Positions 2,313 through 29,294 of a stretch of 64,000 bases of DNA are shown here, in pieces. Location of the stretch: the NCBI GenBank assembly GCA_029254025.1, contig JAQWYK010000047.1:62001-126000 (forward strand), written 5' to 3'. Below the pieces are notes generated by a model. The model was not told the origin of the DNA. It did not search any database and saw only the letters and a list, made by a program, of their open reading frames with translations. The stretch is from Crocinitomicaceae bacterium. Its GTDB lineage: Bacteria > Bacteroidota > Bacteroidia > Flavobacteriales_D > Crocinitomicaceae. Position 1 is the first letter of the stretch. Each line of letters opens with the position of its first letter. Position numbers and translations under genes: made by a program.

Positions 2313-2352
2313 ATTAATTTCGACAGATTCGCACAATTTAGGATCATAATGC

Positions 2353-2360
2353 TATTTTTG
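2353..2360 (+). promoter_or_regulatory. -7 box TATTTTTG before the PorE-like gene
   Basis: TATTTTTG fits TAnnTTTG and lies 57 bases before the ATG at 2418. No TTG was seen at the usual -33 position, so the match is moderate in an AT-rich leader. Confidence 0.4.
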
Positions 2361-2417
2361 TTTGTTGCATTGGAGTCAGTTGATTTTCAAAACACATTAA
2401 TTACATAATTATTGAAC

Positions 2418-4565
2418 ATGAATATAAAGAACTTATTTTTAGTTTCCCTGCTGTTTTTTTCATTTGCATTGTTAGGGCAACAAGCTTCTTTAAATAAAGC
2501 CAATGAGGCATATACTAATGGTAATTATGCTGAATCAGCAGAGTTAGCATCAGCGGCATACGAGAAGGTTTCGCCAAAGAGCCCTAAGGCTCGTGCGATG
2601 AAGGCGGAAATGGCTAAAAAAGCGGCTTTTTCATACAAAATGATTTTTAATTATGACGAATCAATTGCCTGGTTTCAACGTTCTATTGACTTAAAGCATT
2701 GGGAGAAGGAACCAATCGTGTATTTTGAAATAGCTGAATTATATAGAAAACTTGGAGAGTATGAAAAAGCGAAAACTAATTATCAATCATTTCTAGAATT
2801 AGTTCCTCTTGACAAGCGTGCAGAAAACGCATTAGCAAGTATTAACAAGGCAGTTGTGTTGAAAGATAACAGAACACGTTACTCCGTGAAAAATGAGTTC
2901 AAAGTAAACTCAGATAATATCGATATGGCGCCTGTAATTGCAGACCGAAAAGGAAATGTGATTGTATTCGGTTCTACACGAAAAGCACCTGTGGGTGGAG
3001 GAATTGACCCAGTTATTGGTGAACCTTATTTTAACATCTGGCAGGCTGAGTTTGATAAAAAGGGAAACTGGACAGAGCCTGTTCTATTTGCAAGTGGTGA
3101 TAGCATAAATACTGAATACAATGAGGGGACAATGGCTTTTGACGGTCGTTTCAAAAAAATGTTTTTTACAAGATGCCCAAATGAGAAAAAAAGAAATTTA
3201 GGGTGCCAAATTTGGATAAGTAATGCGAAAGGAAAGGCATGGGAAATTCCATCTCGTCTTGAATTTCAAAGAGCTGAAAACATACCTTTAGTTTCTGACT
3301 CAATAAGTATTGGGCATCCCTGTCCAAGTGAGGATGGAATGACGTTGGTTTTTGCTAGTGATATGCCTGGTGGTATCGGGGGTATGGATTTATGGATGAC
3401 TACCTACAAAAAGAAAGAGGATGTTTGGACAACTCCAGTTAACCTTGGTCCAGAGATTAATACTCTTGGTGACGAATTGTTCCCAACTTTCGCGTTGAAT
3501 GGTGATTTATTGTACTCCTCAAACGGTCTTTCTGGTCTTGGAGGTTTAGATATTTTCCGTGCAGAAAAGCAAGGAGATGATGATAAATGGTCTTCTCCGA
3601 AGAACTTGGGGACCCCTCTGAATTCGGATAAGGATGATTTTCACCTACTTGAAATAGACAAAAGAAACGGTTACTTCTCATCGAACAGAAATGGCGCTAA
3701 AGGTGTGAAGAACTTAGACGATTTATGGTCATATAACTTGCCTCCAAACTTATTCGATTTGAAAGTGATTGTTAGTGAAGTAGGTTCAACTGAGAAAATT
3801 GATGGTGTAACAGTTGAAGTTACTCAAAAAGGTGGAGGAACGTTCAAAGGGGTTACAAATTCTCAAGGAACGGTTTTCTGGGATAAACAACCAAATGGCG
3901 ATCGATTTTTCAATGAAGAATCTGAATACTCCATTCGTTTAGGTGTCAAAGATGGATATCACGAGAATTTAGATGCGGAGACTTTTACAACTGTAGGTCT
4001 TGAATTTGATCAAAACTTTATCATTGAAATGGGCCTTTTGGCGAAAAAACCGATTGTACTTCCTGAAGTTCGTTACGATTTAGGCTCAGCAGTGTTACAA
4101 GTTATAGAAGGACAAATCAACTCTAAAGATTCCTTGAATTATGTGTATGAGTTATTGGAAGAATATCCTGGAATGGTGTTGCAACTTTTGTCACACACGG
4201 ATTCACGTGGTTCTGCTAAATCGAATGAAGACCTAGCTCAGCGTCGTGCTCAATCTTGTGTGGATTATCTTGTGCAAGAGAAAGGGGTTAATCCAAATCG
4301 TTTAGTTGCAGTTGGTAAAGGTGAGAGTTCCCCTCGAACAATTTACAAAGTGGGCGATAACTACCTTGTGAAGAAACCGATTGGTGACGTAGAATTTGAA
4401 GAAATATTATTGACTGAAAAATTCATCAATGAATTCCAGCGTTCGAATAAAGAATTATTCGAACAACTCCATCAGTATAATCGTCGTACGGAAGCTGAAG
4501 TAGTTCGTATGGATTGGATAGCTCCCATTGAGGTTGCTCCTGCTCCACAAGAGGGGGGGGAATAA
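2418..4565 (+). CDS. PorE-like OmpA-family protein: TPR, PD40 propeller, regulatory-like domain, OmpA domain
   Basis: This 715-residue envelope protein starts with a signal peptide (residues 1-20, ending LLGQQ). TPR-like helices follow (about 22-145). PD40/WD40-like propeller repeats span about 160-440, with motifs such as FASDMPGGIGGMDLW and YSSNGLSGLGGLDIF. A carboxypeptidase-regulatory-like beta domain (about 445-540) and a C-terminal OmpA domain complete it; the TDSRG and DLAQRRA motifs hold the Asp and Arg that bind peptidoglycan. The order matches PorE, the T9SS protein thought to anchor the machine to the cell wall. Unlike lipoprotein PorE there is no lipobox Cys. Roughly residues 641-715 after SSPR are an extra tail. 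Paralogous OmpA/PD40 proteins exist in this phylum, so assignment to PorE itself is tentative. A run of eight G ends the gene. Confidence 0.8.
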   Translation: MNIKNLFLVSLLFFSFALLGQQASLNKANEAYTNGNYAESAELASAAYEKVSPKSPKARAMKAEMAKKAAFSYKMIFNYDESIAWFQRSIDLKHWEKEPIVYFEIAELYRKLGEYEKAKTNYQSFLELVPLDKRAENALASINKAVVLKDNRTRYSVKNEFKVNSDNIDMAPVIADRKGNVIVFGSTRKAPVGGGIDPVIGEPYFNIWQAEFDKKGNWTEPVLFASGDSINTEYNEGTMAFDGRFKKMFFTRCPNEKKRNLGCQIWISNAKGKAWEIPSRLEFQRAENIPLVSDSISIGHPCPSEDGMTLVFASDMPGGIGGMDLWMTTYKKKEDVWTTPVNLGPEINTLGDELFPTFALNGDLLYSSNGLSGLGGLDIFRAEKQGDDDKWSSPKNLGTPLNSDKDDFHLLEIDKRNGYFSSNRNGAKGVKNLDDLWSYNLPPNLFDLKVIVSEVGSTEKIDGVTVEVTQKGGGTFKGVTNSQGTVFWDKQPNGDRFFNEESEYSIRLGVKDGYHENLDAETFTTVGLEFDQNFIIEMGLLAKKPIVLPEVRYDLGSAVLQVIEGQINSKDSLNYVYELLEEYPGMVLQLLSHTDSRGSAKSNEDLAQRRAQSCVDYLVQEKGVNPNRLVAVGKGESSPRTIYKVGDNYLVKKPIGDVEFEEILLTEKFINEFQRSNKELFEQLHQYNRRTEAEVVRMDWIAPIEVAPAPQEGGE

Positions 4566-4582
4566 GAGATATTAGAGACTAA

Positions 4583-4611
4583 AAAAGGCAATCAACAAGA
4601 TTGCCTTTTTT
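4583..4611 (+). terminator. Rho-independent terminator after the PorE-like gene
   Basis: AAAAAGGCAATC pairs with GATTGCCTTTTT around a short AACAA loop and runs into a T tract. It lies 18 bases after the stop. The A-rich left arm means it may also serve the leftward hydrolase gene that ends at 4638. Confidence 0.85.
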
Positions 4612-4637
4612 ATGGATAATTTTTAATAAAATTGTTG

Positions 4638-5399
4638 CTAACGCACACAGAATCCGAGCACTTCTTCTATGAACTCTTCAGGAGCCTCGGCATGAATCCA
4701 ATGCCCTGCACGCTCAATGGTTTGTATTTCGGCAATAGGAAAGTATGTTAGAATTTGACCCTCGTCTTCCTCAAGGATATAATTGGATTGTCCTCCGCGC
4801 ATAAACAAAGTTTCAGTAAATACCTCCTTAAATTTTAGGGCGCTTACAATAGCCGGCATTTCCTTCTCTAAAACAGGGATGTTAATTCGCCAACCTAGTT
4901 GTCCTTTTTCAACCCAATAAAGGTTTTTTAATAAAAACTGTCGAATACTATCGTTTTCAATATAGTTTTTCAGTTTTTCGTCTGCACCAGATCGGGTCGT
5001 TACCTCATTCAAATTGATCGCATTGAGCCCTTCGAGTATTCGGTCATGATGTATTGGATAGGATTTTACTCCCATGTCCACGATTATCAATTTTCCCACG
5101 ATAGCTTCATGTTGCTGGGTGTAAAGCATCGCTGTTTTTCCGCCCATCGAATGACCCATAAGTATAATGTCTGCTAGGTTTTCTTTCACAATAAGTTCGT
5201 GCAGGTCATCAGCCATTAGTTGATAGCTGAATTCATCACTCCGAGGAGAATGACCATGATTGCGCTGATCGACAAGGTAGACGCAGAAATAATCTGCTAG
5301 TTTTTTTGCATGTGTCAACCAGTTGTCAGAAGAGCCGAATAGGCCATGTAAGATAATCAATGGTTTCCCCTCACCAAAGGCCTTGTAGTATAACTCCAT
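4638..5399 (-). CDS. Alpha/beta hydrolase (YbfF-like esterase family)
   Basis: This 253-residue protein has the alpha/beta-hydrolase fold pattern. LHGLFGSSDNW near the N-terminus supplies the oxyanion hole. GHSMGGKT is the nucleophile elbow with the catalytic Ser. A late GHWIHAEAP supplies the His. Order and spacing resemble YbfF-type acyl esterases, but the substrate cannot be inferred. No signal peptide is present, so it is probably cytoplasmic. The start codon shares one base with the pdxJ stop (TAATG), so the two genes are almost certainly co-transcribed and translationally coupled. Confidence 0.88.
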   Translation of the reverse strand: MELYYKAFGEGKPLIILHGLFGSSDNWLTHAKKLADYFCVYLVDQRNHGHSPRSDEFSYQLMADDLHELIVKENLADIILMGHSMGGKTAMLYTQQHEAIVGKLIIVDMGVKSYPIHHDRILEGLNAINLNEVTTRSGADEKLKNYIENDSIRQFLLKNLYWVEKGQLGWRINIPVLEKEMPAIVSALKFKEVFTETLFMRGGQSNYILEEDEGQILTYFPIAEIQTIERAGHWIHAEAPEEFIEEVLGFCVR

Positions 5400-6112
5400 T
5401 ATTCTAATAGTTTTTTATACATCCGTACGGTGTTTTCTAATCCAAGATAAAGGGCATCAGAGACTAGTGCGTGACCGATGCTGACTTCTTCAAGAAATGG
5501 AATACCACCTCTGAAATAGGCAAGATTTTCTAAACTTAAATCGTGTCCAGCATTTAAGCCTAAGCCAAGTTCCTTGGCACGATTTGCAGCTGTCACGTAG
5601 GGTCGAATAGCATCTTCTTTGTCCTTAGGAAATTGTTCTGCGTAAGGTCCAGTATATAATTCGATACGATCAACCCCTACCAGTGCTGCTCCTTCAATAT
5701 TGGATAAATCTGTATCGACAAAAATTGATGAGCGGACTCCTAATAAGCGCAATTCATTGCAAATTTTAGTTAGCATCGAAGCATGTTTTTTGGTATCCCA
5801 CCCAGCATTTGAGGTGAGTACATGTGGAGGGTCGGGAACAAGCGTAGCTTGTTCAGGTTTTACGTCTTTAATCAACGCCATGAAGCGCTCATCCGGATAT
5901 CCTTCGATGTTATATTCAGTTGTAACAACCTTTTTAAGGTCGTACACATCCTGCAAGGTGATGTGTCGTTCATCTGGTCTTGGGTGGACCGTTATACCGT
6001 CCGCGCCAAATCGTTCACAATCAGCCGCAACTTTACATACATTTGGAGTGTTGCCGCCACGTGCATTCCGCAGCGTTGCTATTTTATTTACATTGACACT
6101 TAATTTCGTCAT
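5399..6112 (-). CDS. pdxJ: Pyridoxine 5'-phosphate synthase PdxJ
   Basis: PdxJ condenses 1-deoxyxylulose 5-phosphate with 3-amino-2-oxopropyl phosphate to form pyridoxine 5'-phosphate, the last ring-forming step of the DXP-dependent vitamin B6 pathway. The start [20 protein letters not shown] is the family N-terminus, so I chose the ATG at 6112 over an in-frame ATG 14 codons upstream. Other family blocks are [15 protein letters not shown] with the active-site His residues, GHDLSLENL, and [13 protein letters not shown] near the C-terminus for phosphate binding. The length of 237 residues is normal. A -7 box sits 23 bases upstream. It leads a two-gene operon with the hydrolase. Confidence 0.97.
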
Positions 6113-6135
6113 TTGATGTACTAATTTTGTTGTTA

Positions 6136-6143
6136 CAAAGTTA
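6136..6143 (-). promoter_or_regulatory. -7 box TAACTTTG for pdxJ
   Basis: On the minus strand the sequence reads TAACTTTG, an exact TAnnTTTG match, 23 bases upstream of the pdxJ ATG. It falls inside the alternative N-terminal extension of pdxJ and so supports the shorter protein. The rightward CBS gene starts 38 bases away on the other side. Confidence 0.6.
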
Positions 6144-6181
6144 TACAGTTTCACGTAGAATTACTACTTTGGTCGAAGACA

Positions 6182-6844
6182 ATGATAGCGATTGAACTAA
6201 TATCAGAAGAAATCCCCCCGTTGAAACACACCGATAGTGGGGACTTGGCTTTGCAGTGGATGGAGGAATTTAAGGTGAAGCATTTACCGGTAATGAAATT
6301 TGACAACTTTGTTGGATTATTGTCGGAAGATGATGTATTGGATAAAAATGATTCCTCCAAAACATTACATGAGTTATTCTATCATTTGCCTCGACCATAC
6401 GTCTTTGGCAGTTCTCACGTTTTCGAGGTACTCGCTAAGGTTTCTGATGAGCACATCACAGTTCTTCCTGTGTTGGATAATGAAGAGAATTATTTAGGTT
6501 GTATTTCCGTGATTGAGCTCATGCAGCGCATCGCAAATACAGGAAGCATCAAAGAAGTAGGTGGGATAATCGTTCTTGAAATTAATGAATTAGACTATTC
6601 GCTTGCGCATATCGCGCAAATTGTTGAAAGTGAAAACACAAAGGTGTTGAGTAGTTTTATAACTTCGCACCCTAACTCTAAAAAGTTAGAACTCACACTG
6701 AAAATCAATCAAGTTGAATTATCAAGAATTATTCGTTCGTTCGAACGCCATGATTATATCGTAAAAGCATCTTTTCAGAAGAGTGATTATCAGGAAGATC
6801 TTAAAAATAGGTACGACGAATTGATGAAGTACCTGAACATCTAA
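6182..6844 (+). CDS. CBS-pair protein with a C-terminal ACT-like domain
   Basis: The first 125 or so residues form two CBS motifs. The first contains KHLPVMKFDNFVGLLSEDDVL; the second contains HITVLPVLDNEENYLGCISVIELMQ. CBS pairs usually bind adenine nucleotides and act as regulatory sensors. Residues about 130-200 (GGIIVLEINELDYSLAHIAQIVESEN and on) have the beta-alpha-beta pattern of an ACT-like domain, another ligand-sensing fold. No catalytic domain is present. The gene lies three bases before nadK, and a CBS protein next to nadK is, as I recall, a common arrangement in Bacteroidota, which suggests a link to NAD(P) or nucleotide sensing. The ligand is unknown. Confidence 0.85.
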   Translation: MIAIELISEEIPPLKHTDSGDLALQWMEEFKVKHLPVMKFDNFVGLLSEDDVLDKNDSSKTLHELFYHLPRPYVFGSSHVFEVLAKVSDEHITVLPVLDNEENYLGCISVIELMQRIANTGSIKEVGGIIVLEINELDYSLAHIAQIVESENTKVLSSFITSHPNSKKLELTLKINQVELSRIIRSFERHDYIVKASFQKSDYQEDLKNRYDELMKYLNI

Positions 6845-6847
6845 TCC

Positions 6848-7726
6848 ATGAATGTAGCTGTATATTGTAGAAAGCTTGTGAAAAAAGACGAGCCCTTTTT
6901 GCGTCAATTTTTTGAGCACTTGGAAAGATTGGGATGGAATGCTGTTATAGAATCTGATTTTCGCAAGCAGCTTATTGAAAGAACAGGACTTGGTATTAAG
7001 TCACATGTGTTCAGCAGTTACAAGGATCTAAGCACAGGGATTGATTTAGCCATTTCTATTGGTGGGGATGGAACATTTCTAAAAATGGTAAGTTTTATCC
7101 GTTCCAGTGGGATTCCCGTGATGGGAATAAATACTGGGCGTCTAGGTTTTTTGGCGAATACCCCCGTTGAGCATTTAGAACGCACGCTCGACATGGTAAT
7201 CAAGAAGGAATATGTTTTTCAAAAACGTTCTCTGCTTCGGGTAGAAACGGAAGAAGATATTTTTGGTGAAGATAAGTTTGCATTTAACGAATTAGCTGTG
7301 CATAAGAAGGATACTTCATCGATGATTACAGTTCACGCCAGTCTTGATGGTAAATATTTAAATTCATATTGGGCCGATGGGTTAATAGCATCTACCCCAA
7401 CTGGTTCGACGGCTTATTCATTGAGTTGTGGGGGACCTATAATTACACCTGGTTGTGCAGTTCATATACTCACTCCCATTGCACCGCATAACTTAAATGT
7501 TCGTCCAGTTGTAGTTCCAGATCACATGTCGATTGAATTGACTGTAGAAGGTAGGGATCGTAAATATTTGCTTACACTCGATTCTCATTCCAAAGCGGTT
7601 AAGAATGGTACCAAGGTTACTTTACACAAGGCGGATTTCATGATTAATGTAATCAAATTTGAAGAGAATAATTTCCTCGATACCATCAGGAATAAAATGA
7701 TGTGGGGCCTCGATAAGCGGAATTAA
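6848..7726 (+). CDS. nadK: NAD kinase
   Basis: NAD kinase phosphorylates NAD to NADP using ATP or polyphosphate. The hallmark GGDGT motif with the catalytic Asp is at residues 72-76, followed by GIPVMGINTGRLGFL. NELAVHKKD and the glycine-rich block STPTGSTAYSLSCGGPI also match the family. The length of 292 residues is typical. It sits three bases after the CBS/ACT gene and 33 bases before the porG-like gene, in what looks like one rightward operon. Confidence 0.97.
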   Translation: MNVAVYCRKLVKKDEPFLRQFFEHLERLGWNAVIESDFRKQLIERTGLGIKSHVFSSYKDLSTGIDLAISIGGDGTFLKMVSFIRSSGIPVMGINTGRLGFLANTPVEHLERTLDMVIKKEYVFQKRSLLRVETEEDIFGEDKFAFNELAVHKKDTSSMITVHASLDGKYLNSYWADGLIASTPTGSTAYSLSCGGPIITPGCAVHILTPIAPHNLNVRPVVVPDHMSIELTVEGRDRKYLLTLDSHSKAVKNGTKVTLHKADFMINVIKFEENNFLDTIRNKMMWGLDKRN

Positions 7727-22117: not shown

Positions 22118-22150
22118 ACCCGCTTTTGTTCATGAAATAAAGGCGGTTTT
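22118..22150 (+). terminator. Possible terminator downstream of fabF
   Basis: ACCCGCTTTT can pair with AAAGGCGGT (one bulged C and one G-U pair) around a short loop, followed by TTTT. It lies 150 bases after the fabF stop and before the membrane-protein operon. The rest of the 270-base gap is AT-rich and shows nothing else. Confidence 0.4.
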
Positions 22151-22241: not shown

Positions 22242-23009
22242 ATGAAAAGAAAATCTCAAAAATATAAAGTATTAGCAATTCATATAATAGGTGAATTTAT
22301 TGGTTCTACCCTCTTCTCGCTGATGTATTTTATGTTTATCGCACGTTACTTGGATAGTGAATTCGAGTTTAGCTTTACGGTACTGGCATTTTTTATTGGA
22401 GCTGCTTATTTTGTGTCTGTCTACATACCATTTCACACTTACCGGATTCATATAATTCCTTTCATTTCCATCATTCGAGCTTTGCAGAAAAAAAAGTGGC
22501 GTATTATACTCAATAAGATTCCTGCTCAAATAATTGGTGCTTTTGCAGGGACCGCTTTGTTTAAGGAGTTTATGACTTTAATGAATTCTGAAGTAGATAT
22601 AATGGATATGTGGTCGTATAGATTGGAGCAGCCTTCAGATGTTCTATTTTTCAACTTGCTCGTTGTATTTGTTCTGTGTTATGCATTTTACATTTTACAA
22701 CTCTTGTTTAAGAGTTTGAATTTTACAAGTACCTTTTTCTTTGCATTGGTCGTCCAGGCCCTATTCATTTTTACATGGCAAGTTTCGGAAATTACAGCCT
22801 TGAATGTGTTTGGCTACCTAAGCCTTATTATGCTAGAAGGTGATTTTGATTTCTTGACGAATGTTTTTTGGACAATCGTGATTCATTTGGTATCTCCTTC
22901 TTTGTTAGCAATAGGGATTTTTTATTATATACGCGATCGGTACTTTAATAAAAATAGAAATATTCCACGTTCTACTAGTGGGAGTATAACGCAGAATTAC
23001 GATGTATAA
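22242..23009 (+). CDS. Aquaporin (MIP)-like membrane protein with degenerate NPA boxes
   Basis: This 255-residue protein has about six hydrophobic segments and the internal layout of the major intrinsic protein family. IHIIGEFIGSTLF resembles the first helix with its Glu. RIHIIPFISII lines up with AHLNPAVTIA of GlpF, followed by KIPAQIIGAFAGTALF, which matches the helix-3 pattern IVAQ.LGA..GA. In the second half, VSEITALNVFGYLS lines up with the second NPA region. The boxes read Ile-Pro-Phe (72-74) and Asn-Val-Phe (188-190) instead of Asn-Pro-Ala, so ordinary water or glycerol selectivity is doubtful. The start is taken at MKRKSQ; an in-frame start 20 codons earlier has no support. It is followed after nine bases by the PiT-like gene. 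The assignment is by eye and needs structural confirmation. Confidence 0.6.
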   Translation: MKRKSQKYKVLAIHIIGEFIGSTLFSLMYFMFIARYLDSEFEFSFTVLAFFIGAAYFVSVYIPFHTYRIHIIPFISIIRALQKKKWRIILNKIPAQIIGAFAGTALFKEFMTLMNSEVDIMDMWSYRLEQPSDVLFFNLLVVFVLCYAFYILQLLFKSLNFTSTFFFALVVQALFIFTWQVSEITALNVFGYLSLIMLEGDFDFLTNVFWTIVIHLVSPSLLAIGIFYYIRDRYFNKNRNIPRSTSGSITQNYDV

Positions 23010-23018
23010 GTTGAATGA

Positions 23019-24173
23019 ATGAGTAACAATAAATCAAATATCACATCACAAATCATAGGAGAAAAGCGCTATAAGTTACTGGAGCTATTTTTTATCCAAG
23101 AGCGCACTTTTTTCAGGTTGTTGGCTTTGTTTCTGGTTGTAGCGGCAATCACTTATCCATACCCTCAAATAGCTATGTGGGTTGGTTTTAGCTTGGCTGC
23201 ATATTCTGCAATTGCCAATGATTCAATTCAAAGTATTGGGACGTTCATTGCTTCAAACTCAGAGCGAAAGTGGTGGCTTCTGTGGCTGTTTATTGGTGGA
23301 ATATTTGTGGTTACCGTATTTTATTCGTGGTATTATTACGGAGGGGATGTTTCTCATGAACGACTTCTCTCAAAGGATAGTGAGGGCAATCTTAAGTTTC
23401 CAGAAGCCGAAAATTTCAAGTTCTTACAACTTGCAGCTCCAATAGTTTTGCTTTTATTGACACGATTAAGAATGCCCGTTTCTACGACATTCATGCTATT
23501 GAGTGTCTTTAGTGCTAATTCTAAAGGGATTCTTTCTGTAGGGCAGAAAAGTTTGATTGGATACCTTATTGCGTTTGGAGTTGCTATGGTCGTTTGGTTT
23601 GGATTAAACTTCTTAATAAAACGTCTGTTAAAAGGGGAGATGTCTTCTTGGTGGATTGTTGCTCAATGGATAATTAGTGGTTGGTTATGGTCCATGTGGG
23701 TGATGCATGATGCGGCAAATATTGCTATTTTTCTTCCTAGATCACTGAGTATAACGGGGTTTGTCGTATTTGCTGGTGTTGTCTTCTTTGGGCTGGGGCT
23801 CTTATTTTATTTGAGGGGAGATAAGATTCAATCCATTGTAACGGAGAAATCTGAGGTAACAGATGTGCGTTCGGCTTCCATAATTGACTTTGCTTACCTT
23901 ATAGTACTGTTTGTATTTAAGGAGATGAGTAACGTACCGATGAGTACTACTTGGGTATTTATAGGTTTATTAGGAGGACGTGAGTTGGCAATGAGATTAT
24001 CTGCAAGAGCTACAAAGAAAATAGAAGCAGAAGGAACTATGTCATTGAGAACAACAATTCTAATGGTGGTGAAAGACTTGTCTTACGCGACTATTGGTCT
24101 TTTGGTGTCAATTACTCTTGCTATCGCAATTAATGATTCATTGCAACAAGAGATCTTAGATTGGTTTAAGTAA
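23019..24173 (+). CDS. PiT (SLC20)-like membrane transporter, divergent
   Basis: The 384-residue protein has roughly ten hydrophobic segments arranged as two inverted halves with the features of PiT phosphate transporters. Each half has a GANDVAN-like block, here AIANDSIQSIGT (Asn67-Asp68) and MHDAANIAIF (230-234), and a PVSTT-like block, here RMPVSTTF (153-157) and NVPMSTTW (307-311). The second block reads HDAAN rather than GANDVAN, so the family call is as a divergent member. PiT proteins import phosphate with sodium or protons. It is co-transcribed with the aquaporin-like gene. The actual substrate is uncertain. Confidence 0.68.
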   Translation: MSNNKSNITSQIIGEKRYKLLELFFIQERTFFRLLALFLVVAAITYPYPQIAMWVGFSLAAYSAIANDSIQSIGTFIASNSERKWWLLWLFIGGIFVVTVFYSWYYYGGDVSHERLLSKDSEGNLKFPEAENFKFLQLAAPIVLLLLTRLRMPVSTTFMLLSVFSANSKGILSVGQKSLIGYLIAFGVAMVVWFGLNFLIKRLLKGEMSSWWIVAQWIISGWLWSMWVMHDAANIAIFLPRSLSITGFVVFAGVVFFGLGLLFYLRGDKIQSIVTEKSEVTDVRSASIIDFAYLIVLFVFKEMSNVPMSTTWVFIGLLGGRELAMRLSARATKKIEAEGTMSLRTTILMVVKDLSYATIGLLVSITLAIAINDSLQQEILDWFK

Positions 24174-24231
24174 TTAAATTTCTGGATCTTCGTCAAGGGG
24201 AGAAGTATCCCTCTTTTTTACCAATATGAAA

Positions 24232-24269
24232 CTAAAAAAATCAACTGAATTCAGTTGACTTTTTTAGTT
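24232..24269. terminator. Bidirectional terminator between convergent operons
   Basis: The 18-base perfect palindrome TCAACTGAATTCAGTTGA (24241-24258) is flanked by an A run on the left and a T run on the right, so it can end transcription from both the PiT-like gene and the acyl-CoA dehydrogenase gene. Confidence 0.93.
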
Positions 24270-27890: not shown

Positions 27891-29294
27891 ATGGAAATTT
27901 TTATTGTCACCGTATTTATTCTTGGTTACCTTGCTATTACACTTGAGCACACCATTAAGATAGATAAATTAGTTCCCGCGCTATTAATGATGGCTTTGGC
28001 TTGGGCAGGAGTAACGTTTGGATTAGATGGTTTTGCCCAATGGTTCGATTCGCACGCCAGTGCATTGATGAACGGTGAGAATGGTACCGAAAACTTTGCC
28101 GTGATGGGGCATGAAGATAAATTGCATGTGATGGAGAATACATTACTTCATCATTTCGGTAAGACGTGTGAAATCTTAATCTTTTTAATTGGTGCAATGA
28201 CGATTGTAGAAATTGTGGATCATTTCCACGGGTTTTCTACTATAAAATCTTTTATCCGTACCAACAAGAAAAGAACATTGCTTTGGATTATCGCCATTTT
28301 AGCTTTTATTTTATCAGCAATCATAGATAACCTCACTGCTACAATTGTACTGATAACTATTCTTCGAAAATTATTATCTGATTCTAAGGATAGAATTTGG
28401 TTTGCAGGTATGATTATCATTGCAGCGAATGCCGGTGGCGCATGGTCTCCAATTGGTGATGTAACAACGACAATGCTCTGGATGGGAGGTAAAGTAAGTG
28501 CAATAGATTTATTTGCAAAATTGATTATTCCTTCCATTATTTGTATGGTTGTACCAACCTTAATCGCATCGTTTTCGAAAGCATTCAAAGGCTCATTTGA
28601 ATTACCTCCAGAGTCAGAAGGTTCTAACAAACGTGGACCACTTATGCTGTATTTAGGGTTAGGAATGATTGTATTTGTTCCTATTTTTAAAACAATTACA
28701 CACCTTCCTCCATATGTCGGTATGATGCTTTCTTTAGGGATTGTTGCATTGGTTGCTGAAATTATTAGTGCGCGTCAATTTACATTGTCCTATGCAGGTG
28801 CAGGAAAAGAAGAGAATGATGATGACGTTGGAGATCATGGTGGAGGTGGAGGACATCATGAGAGCCCAACGTTTAGAGCACTTACTAAAATTGAGATGCC
28901 TTCTATTTTATTTTTCCTAGGTATTTTAATGACAGTAGCTGCATTGGAATCTCTAGGTCTTGTATTTAACTTTGGTCAATCAGTAAGTGCTAGTATGCAC
29001 ACGGATGTATTCGTAATGCTTCTTGGACTTGGCTCAGCCGTGATTGATAATGTGCCATTGGTTGCTGCCAGTATGGGAATGTTCCAGAATGAAATGGATC
29101 ATCATGTATGGCATTTTATAGCTTACGCAGCTGGGACAGGAGGTTCAATGTTGATTATTGGTTCGGCCGCCGGAGTTGTTGCAATGGGAATGGAACGCAT
29201 TTCATTTTTCTGGTATCTAAAAAATATTTCTTGGTTGGCTTTAGTAGGGTACGTTGTTGGAGCTTTGGCTTATATTCTAATGAACCCAATGTAA
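27891..29294 (+). CDS. nhaD: NhaD-type sodium:proton antiporter
   Basis: A 467-residue polytopic protein (about 11-13 segments) of the NhaD branch of the ion-transporter superfamily. Diagnostic segments are SAIIDNLTATIVLITIL, AANAGGAWSPIGDVTTTMLW and SAVIDNVPLVAASMGMF. NhaD extrudes sodium against protons and is common in salt-adapted bacteria. A cytoplasmic or periplasmic loop near residues 303-326 is rich in Asp, Gly and His (DDDVGDHGGGGGHHES), which is unusual. It heads a run of same-strand genes: nhaD, exbB, exbD, a tonB-like gene and folC. Confidence 0.95.
   Translation: MEIFIVTVFILGYLAITLEHTIKIDKLVPALLMMALAWAGVTFGLDGFAQWFDSHASALMNGENGTENFAVMGHEDKLHVMENTLLHHFGKTCEILIFLIGAMTIVEIVDHFHGFSTIKSFIRTNKKRTLLWIIAILAFILSAIIDNLTATIVLITILRKLLSDSKDRIWFAGMIIIAANAGGAWSPIGDVTTTMLWMGGKVSAIDLFAKLIIPSIICMVVPTLIASFSKAFKGSFELPPESEGSNKRGPLMLYLGLGMIVFVPIFKTITHLPPYVGMMLSLGIVALVAEIISARQFTLSYAGAGKEENDDDVGDHGGGGGHHESPTFRALTKIEMPSILFFLGILMTVAALESLGLVFNFGQSVSASMHTDVFVMLLGLGSAVIDNVPLVAASMGMFQNEMDHHVWHFIAYAAGTGGSMLIIGSAAGVVAMGMERISFFWYLKNISWLALVGYVVGALAYILMNPM

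Follow-up and report, generated by a model that had tools for sequence, protein, structure and literature searches.

Two membrane-protein genes that lie close together on a Crocinitomicaceae contig raise the question of whether an aquaporin-like protein with altered pore boxes and a divergent relative of the PiT transporters work as one system and, if so, on which solute. The genes lie in a stretch of 64,000 nucleotides, here called the window, which was analysed as a whole. A first-pass annotation, made from the letters alone, had described them as adjacent genes, nine bases apart and with a common terminator; it had read IPF and NVF at the NPA positions of gene 1, and AIANDS, PVSTT, HDAAN and PMSTT in gene 2, and had suggested a solute other than water or phosphate. 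The gene arrangement and all of these motifs (the AND of AIANDS being residues 66-68) were recovered on re-analysis and are listed in Table 1.

Organization of the locus

Upstream of the pair is a fabF-like gene, and on its other side a convergent gene resembling that of an acyl-CoA dehydrogenase (names assigned by eye). Since terminator-like hairpins flank it on both sides, the pair looks like a free-standing bicistron of its own, the count of such hairpins being barely above that of shuffled sequences. The Bacteroidota promoter consensus (TTG, 20 nt, TAnnTTTG) showed no excess in the window and gave no plus-strand site before the pair. The genome to which the window belongs is 2.7 Mb in size and 99.9% complete, its closest named relatives being Crocinitomicaceae. 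A large membrane protein resembling an NhaD-type Na+/H+ antiporter, as judged by eye, is encoded a few genes downstream of the pair (27,891-29,294).

Table 1. Features of the two-gene locus, in window positions
Feature	Position	Strand	Description
Terminator-like hairpin	22120..22146	+	Between fabF-like gene and the pair; consensus match only
Gene 1	22242..23009	+	ATG 22242 to TAA 23009; 255 aa; MIP-fold (aquaporin-like) membrane protein without canonical NPA boxes
First NPA position, I72-P73-F74	22455..22463	+	Start of first half-helix; P73 and F74 invariant in 14 aligned members
Second NPA position, N188-V189-F190	22803..22811	+	Followed by G191 where MIPs carry the ar/R Arg
Gene 2	23019..24173	+	ATG 23019 to TAA 24173; 384 aa; divergent PiT-superfamily transporter (by sequence profile)
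First PiT signature block, altered, A66-N-D68-S-I-Q71	23214..23231	+	N67, D68 and Q71 invariant in 37 members; D68 aligns with PiT2 D28
First PVSTT loop, residues 153-157	23475..23489	+	P153, S155 and T156 the same in all 37 members and T157 in 35 of them; S155 aligns with PiT2 S113
Second signature block, altered, H230-D231-A-A-N234	23706..23720	+	D231 (aligns with PiT2 D506) and N234 invariant
Second PMSTT loop, residues 307-311	23937..23951	+	Invariant in 37 members; S309 aligns with PiT2 S593
Two terminator-like hairpins 3' of gene 2	24196-24212 and 24241-24258	+	Consensus match only

Fold of gene 1

The AF2 model of gene 1, for which the window protein and its counterparts from related loci were aligned (17 sequences), is of fair quality (pLDDT 73.4, pTM 0.73) and comprises six transmembrane helices and two half-helices (helical residues 2-36, 43-66, 73-83, 87-113, 131-157, 164-180, 189-199 and 208-239), the half-helices being predicted to start at the two NPA positions. 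When the model was searched against the PDB with Foldseek, the best 50 matches were all aquaporins (probability 1.00, TM-score 0.50-0.68 normalised to query length), the best E-value being 1.2e-3, with no match passing 0.001 by E alone. Profile-profile alignment (hhalign) of gene 1 with 12 MIPs yielded an E-value of 1.6e-8 over 206 columns, as compared to 3.2e-4 for the best of 20 block-shuffled controls. The gene 1 profile also recovers ordinary aquaporins with NPA boxes, from the same order and class, with E-values from about 1e-4 down to 9.5e-9, and PF00230 matches one of the 14 gene 1 members (E 4e-8) while leaving the window protein unmatched. An internal repeat was not significant in a profile test. 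By fold and by profile similarity, gene 1 is a member of the MIP (aquaporin) superfamily, as the first-pass annotation had anticipated.

Pore motifs of gene 1 and water conduction

The NPA boxes had been described as lost, and this holds for the first box, where Asn is replaced by I, L or F, and Ala by Phe, in all 14 members; in L135 the box reads IPL. The second box retains its Asn in 12 of the 14 and its Pro in 7, while Ala has become Phe in 12. It reads NPF in most relatives and NVF or NIF in the clade of the window, and is wholly lost only in two remote members, L038 and L039. Judged from these aligned sequences, the second box is eroded but not lost family-wide, the NVF of the window being a feature of its clade. 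The selectivity-filter Arg position is occupied by Gly in 12 members and by Gln in two. Gene 1 thus carries neither the two NPA boxes with both Asn nor the filter Arg after the second box, which mark a functional aquaporin or aquaglyceroporin; because Phe stands at both Ala positions, and the Asn of the first box and the filter Arg are gone, the protein is probably unable to conduct water.

In another reading, gene 1 is a working channel of altered selectivity, passing an ion or a small solute in place of water or glycerol beside gene 2 and, for example, balancing charge or volume during phosphate uptake. The complete predicted architecture of six helices and two half-helices, the Asn-containing NPF of loop E in most members, and the conservation of Arg68 and His70 directly before the first half-helix in 12 of 14 members all speak for such a channel. 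However, L038 and L039 keep the pair yet lack both Arg68 and His70, the pore motifs differ between clades whereas the pairing does not, and the two Phe that stand in place of Ala should constrict the pore, to go by known MIP structures. A channel function is considered unlikely on this balance, and a role as an accessory partner of gene 2 is preferred.

Relationship of gene 2 to PiT transporters

Alignment of a profile of 37 gene 2 family members with one of 18 PiT proteins (hhalign) resulted in 244 collinear columns, near full length, with an E-value of 5.7e-7 and a score of 57.8, as against scores of at most 24.3 (best E 0.03) for 20 block-shuffled controls and 27.1 for a reversed control. 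A smaller gene 2 profile against a few PiT proteins was too weak, and the relationship was settled with the 37 and 18 sequences. PF01384 matches 14 of the 37 members, with a best E-value of 6.4e-6, and does not match the gene 2 protein of the window at E up to 10. Pfam and NCBIfam gave no match of weight for either protein of the window. In the search with PF00230 and PF01384 that the first-pass annotation had proposed, only relatives of the two proteins were matched. The predicted model of gene 2 is poor (pLDDT 61.3), and its PDB fold search gave no significant match; in a half-versus-half profile test for an internal repeat, the STT loop alone was aligned, without significance. On the profile evidence gene 2 is a divergent relative of the PiT superfamily, in agreement with the earlier assignment.

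The PiT family is defined by two signature sequences with a GANDVAN(A) core, and D28, E55, S113, H502, D506, E575 and S593 are critical in human PiT2 (PMC3126765). The canonical pair of cores is absent from gene 2, which reads AIANDSIQ and HDAAN, with one Asn changed in each block. When the seven PiT2 residues were mapped through the profile alignment with bacterial PiT proteins, they corresponded to Asp68, Gly94, Ser155, Trp227, Asp231, Asp290 and Ser309 of gene 2, all of which except position 94 are invariant in the 37 members. Four of the seven (D28, S113, D506 and S593) are kept, E575 is replaced by Asp, E55 by Gly and H502 by Trp.

Gene 2 also has an N-terminal extension of about 45 aa. 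Its use as a docking part for gene 1 was ruled out, as solo gene 2 homologs of other families have the extension too. A replacement of the ordinary PiT by gene 2 was likewise considered: of 61 genomes of the phylum, eight carry gene 2, none of these eight with a full classical PF01384 match and two with a match of the long divergent kind, which is suggestive but too few.

Conservation and descent of the pair

A scan of 84,980 genomes for gene 1 gave 16 loci in 15 genomes, in each of which gene 1 is followed by a gene 2 homolog with the same orientation. The window, L038, L039 and L135 bring this to 20 gene 1 homologs in 19 genomes, every one of them immediately ahead of gene 2, with a spacing of -8 to +41 bases; L129, L130, L132 and L133 are also paired and may come from species that the counted loci already represent. 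Conservation of the pair across the 20 loci is far beyond chance, and the pairing with largely the same changed motifs, which the first-pass annotation had looked for in Flavobacteriales, was found there and in nearby lineages. Two copies of the pair occur on different contigs of one Lishizhenia assembly (L020 and L021, G035), for which about 6% contamination is listed. In L135, a photolyase-like gene (2346-3650), named by eye, is located just upstream of the divergent pair.

The coordination of the two genes, as first described, holds in one direction only. Gene 2 was detected in 44 of 296 sampled Bacteroidota genomes (about 15%), and gene 1 stands beside it in none of the 29 inspected gene 2 loci of the phylum other than that of the window, most gene 2 homologs of the phylum being alone. 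Gene 2 is thus often found alone and gene 1 never (0 of 20 loci), which indicates a one-way dependence, of gene 1 on gene 2. All paired gene 2 proteins fall into a single clade (support 100/99), and a single label change is needed on the tree. Short solo forms of gene 2 (about 318 aa) from the window's own family occur in L008 and L007, the next protein (2483-3322 in L008, 2550-3392 in L007) being two-domain and universal-stress-protein-like, as judged by eye.

By the median distance ratio, gene 1 evolves at about 2.8 times the rate of gene 2, and the distances of the two are correlated with r = 0.64, a value that common descent alone could give. The faster change, and the frequency of solo gene 2, are in keeping with genes that are merely co-transcribed, gene 1 having an unrelated or decaying role without effect on gene 2. 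Such an explanation is very unlikely in our judgement, for gene 1 does not occur without gene 2 in the 20 loci, its frame is intact in each inspected copy, and the adjacency of the pair was held while the flanking genes changed.

Phosphate genes around the pair

An NptA-type Na/Pi cotransporter gene (PF02690 with a PhoU domain) adjoins the pair in 11 of the 16 database loci, mostly close kin and hence few independent events, and a gene for a phosphate-selective porin (Porin_O_P, porin O/P) lies directly upstream in 7 of the 16. A pst operon with phoU is found upstream of the pair in L029 and L033, and in L027 NptA is on the other side of the pair, with a PhoBR-like response regulator and histidine kinase nearby. 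Solo gene 2 genes of two families, f34 and f19, also adjoin Na/Pi cotransporter genes. The cases counted as independent are the downstream-NptA arrangement, L027 and these two solo families. In L033, phoU and gene 1 are separated by an oppositely oriented gene (6942-7724) for a voltage-gated-type ion channel (PF00520).

No phosphate genes adjoin the pair in the genome of the window or in its four nearest loci (L019-L022), and nothing weakens the phosphate reading more where the window itself is concerned. In a search by family, PF01384, PF00230, PstC and a separate PhoU were not found in that genome, which has one NptA, on a contig other than that of the pair. A PitR or PhoU domain fused to gene 2, or located beside it, was likewise absent from the window.

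The suggestion of a solute other than phosphate is not borne out, as the genes around the pair suggest phosphate and gene 2 retains four of the seven PiT2-critical residues, with E575 replaced by Asp. In a related explanation, the substrate is a different oxyanion or a metalloid, such as arsenate, arsenite or phosphite; a MIP combined with a phosphate-like carrier would suit this. AqpS and other MIPs of arsenic operons are encoded in oxyanion-handling clusters; as far as is known they keep their NPA boxes, conduct, and have no PiT-like partner. In two loci of close kin, L028 and L032, arsR, arsenite-methyltransferase-type (arsM), acr3 and arsC-like genes (3914-6548 and 3915-6549, respectively) are arranged divergently beside a porin-gene 1-gene 2-NptA cluster. 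These neighbours, along with the altered GANDVAN blocks of gene 2, favour the oxyanion explanation; but arsenic genes adjoin the pair in these two loci only, every other informative neighbour is a phosphate gene, and the STT loops and both Asp of gene 2 are invariant, so that this explanation is regarded as quite unlikely.

Proposed working of the pair

That the pair constitutes a conserved two-gene phosphate unit, with gene 2 as a PiT-type transporter and gene 1 as a MIP-derived accessory partner, has about an even chance of being correct in our view. The analysis shows the MIP fold of gene 1, the profile relationship of gene 2 to PiT, the pairing, the single clade and the phosphate neighbourhood; phosphate as the substrate of gene 2, the direction of transport, a physical interaction of the two proteins and the loss of water conduction by gene 1 are what we infer. 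Gene 2 would import Pi as a secondary transporter, export being less likely. Its cation coupling has probably been changed, a proposal made because gene 2 retains its STT loops and the two essential Asp while the GANDVAN cation-site blocks are altered. Gene 1 may have been recruited once, as a membrane partner obligately tied to gene 2, in the ancestor of a clade centred on Flavobacteriales; it would assemble with gene 2, stabilise it or regulate it in a role like that of PhoU-type proteins for other importers. Each family of bacterial phosphate importers has a dedicated accessory regulator, namely PhoU for Pst, PitR for Pit and a PhoU domain for NptA (PMC13170248). More tentatively, and with some doubt, the aquaporin fold may have been turned into an obligate subunit of a PiT-type transporter, regulatory or structural in role and no longer water-conducting, so as to give a two-component MIP-PiT system.

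Comparison with known systems

Among MIPs (PF00230), gene 1 is nearest to the GlpF-type aquaglyceroporins, with which it shares the fold, the half-helices at the NPA positions, the conserved TM1 Glu, the AQ..GA stretch and the profile match, but it differs in the first box (IPF), in the second (NPF or NVF), in the change of the filter Arg to Gly and in the missing PF00230 match of the window protein. Gene 2 resembles the PiT proteins (PF01384, SLC20, PitA) in its near full-length collinear profile alignment, the two STT loops and the two critical Asp; it differs in both GANDVAN blocks and at the positions of H502 (Trp) and E575 (Asp), the window protein being below PF01384 detection. The PitA-PitR and NptA-PhoU pairs are alike in that a phosphate importer family has its own accessory protein; their accessories are PhoU-like proteins or domains, whereas the candidate here is a membrane protein of aquaporin fold (PMC13170248). 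Each of the two proteins is a remote member of a superfamily already known, and no description of their pairing was found. A literature search disclosed neither a MIP-PiT pair nor an NPA-less MIP in a phosphate locus, in keeping with the first-pass annotation, which knew of no described system of this form, although most subscription journals lay outside the search and the evidence is weak accordingly.

If the proposal is true, a channel fold has been reused as the partner of a transporter, and bacterial phosphate import would gain a fourth kind of accessory, next to PhoU, PitR and the PhoU domain of NptA. As about 15% of the sampled genomes carry the gene 2 family and Pfam and NCBIfam miss most of its members, annotation of phosphate transport in Bacteroidota is probably incomplete. 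In genomes like that of the window, which have no recognisable PiT or Pst, only two phosphate importers may be recognisable, gene 2 being one of them.
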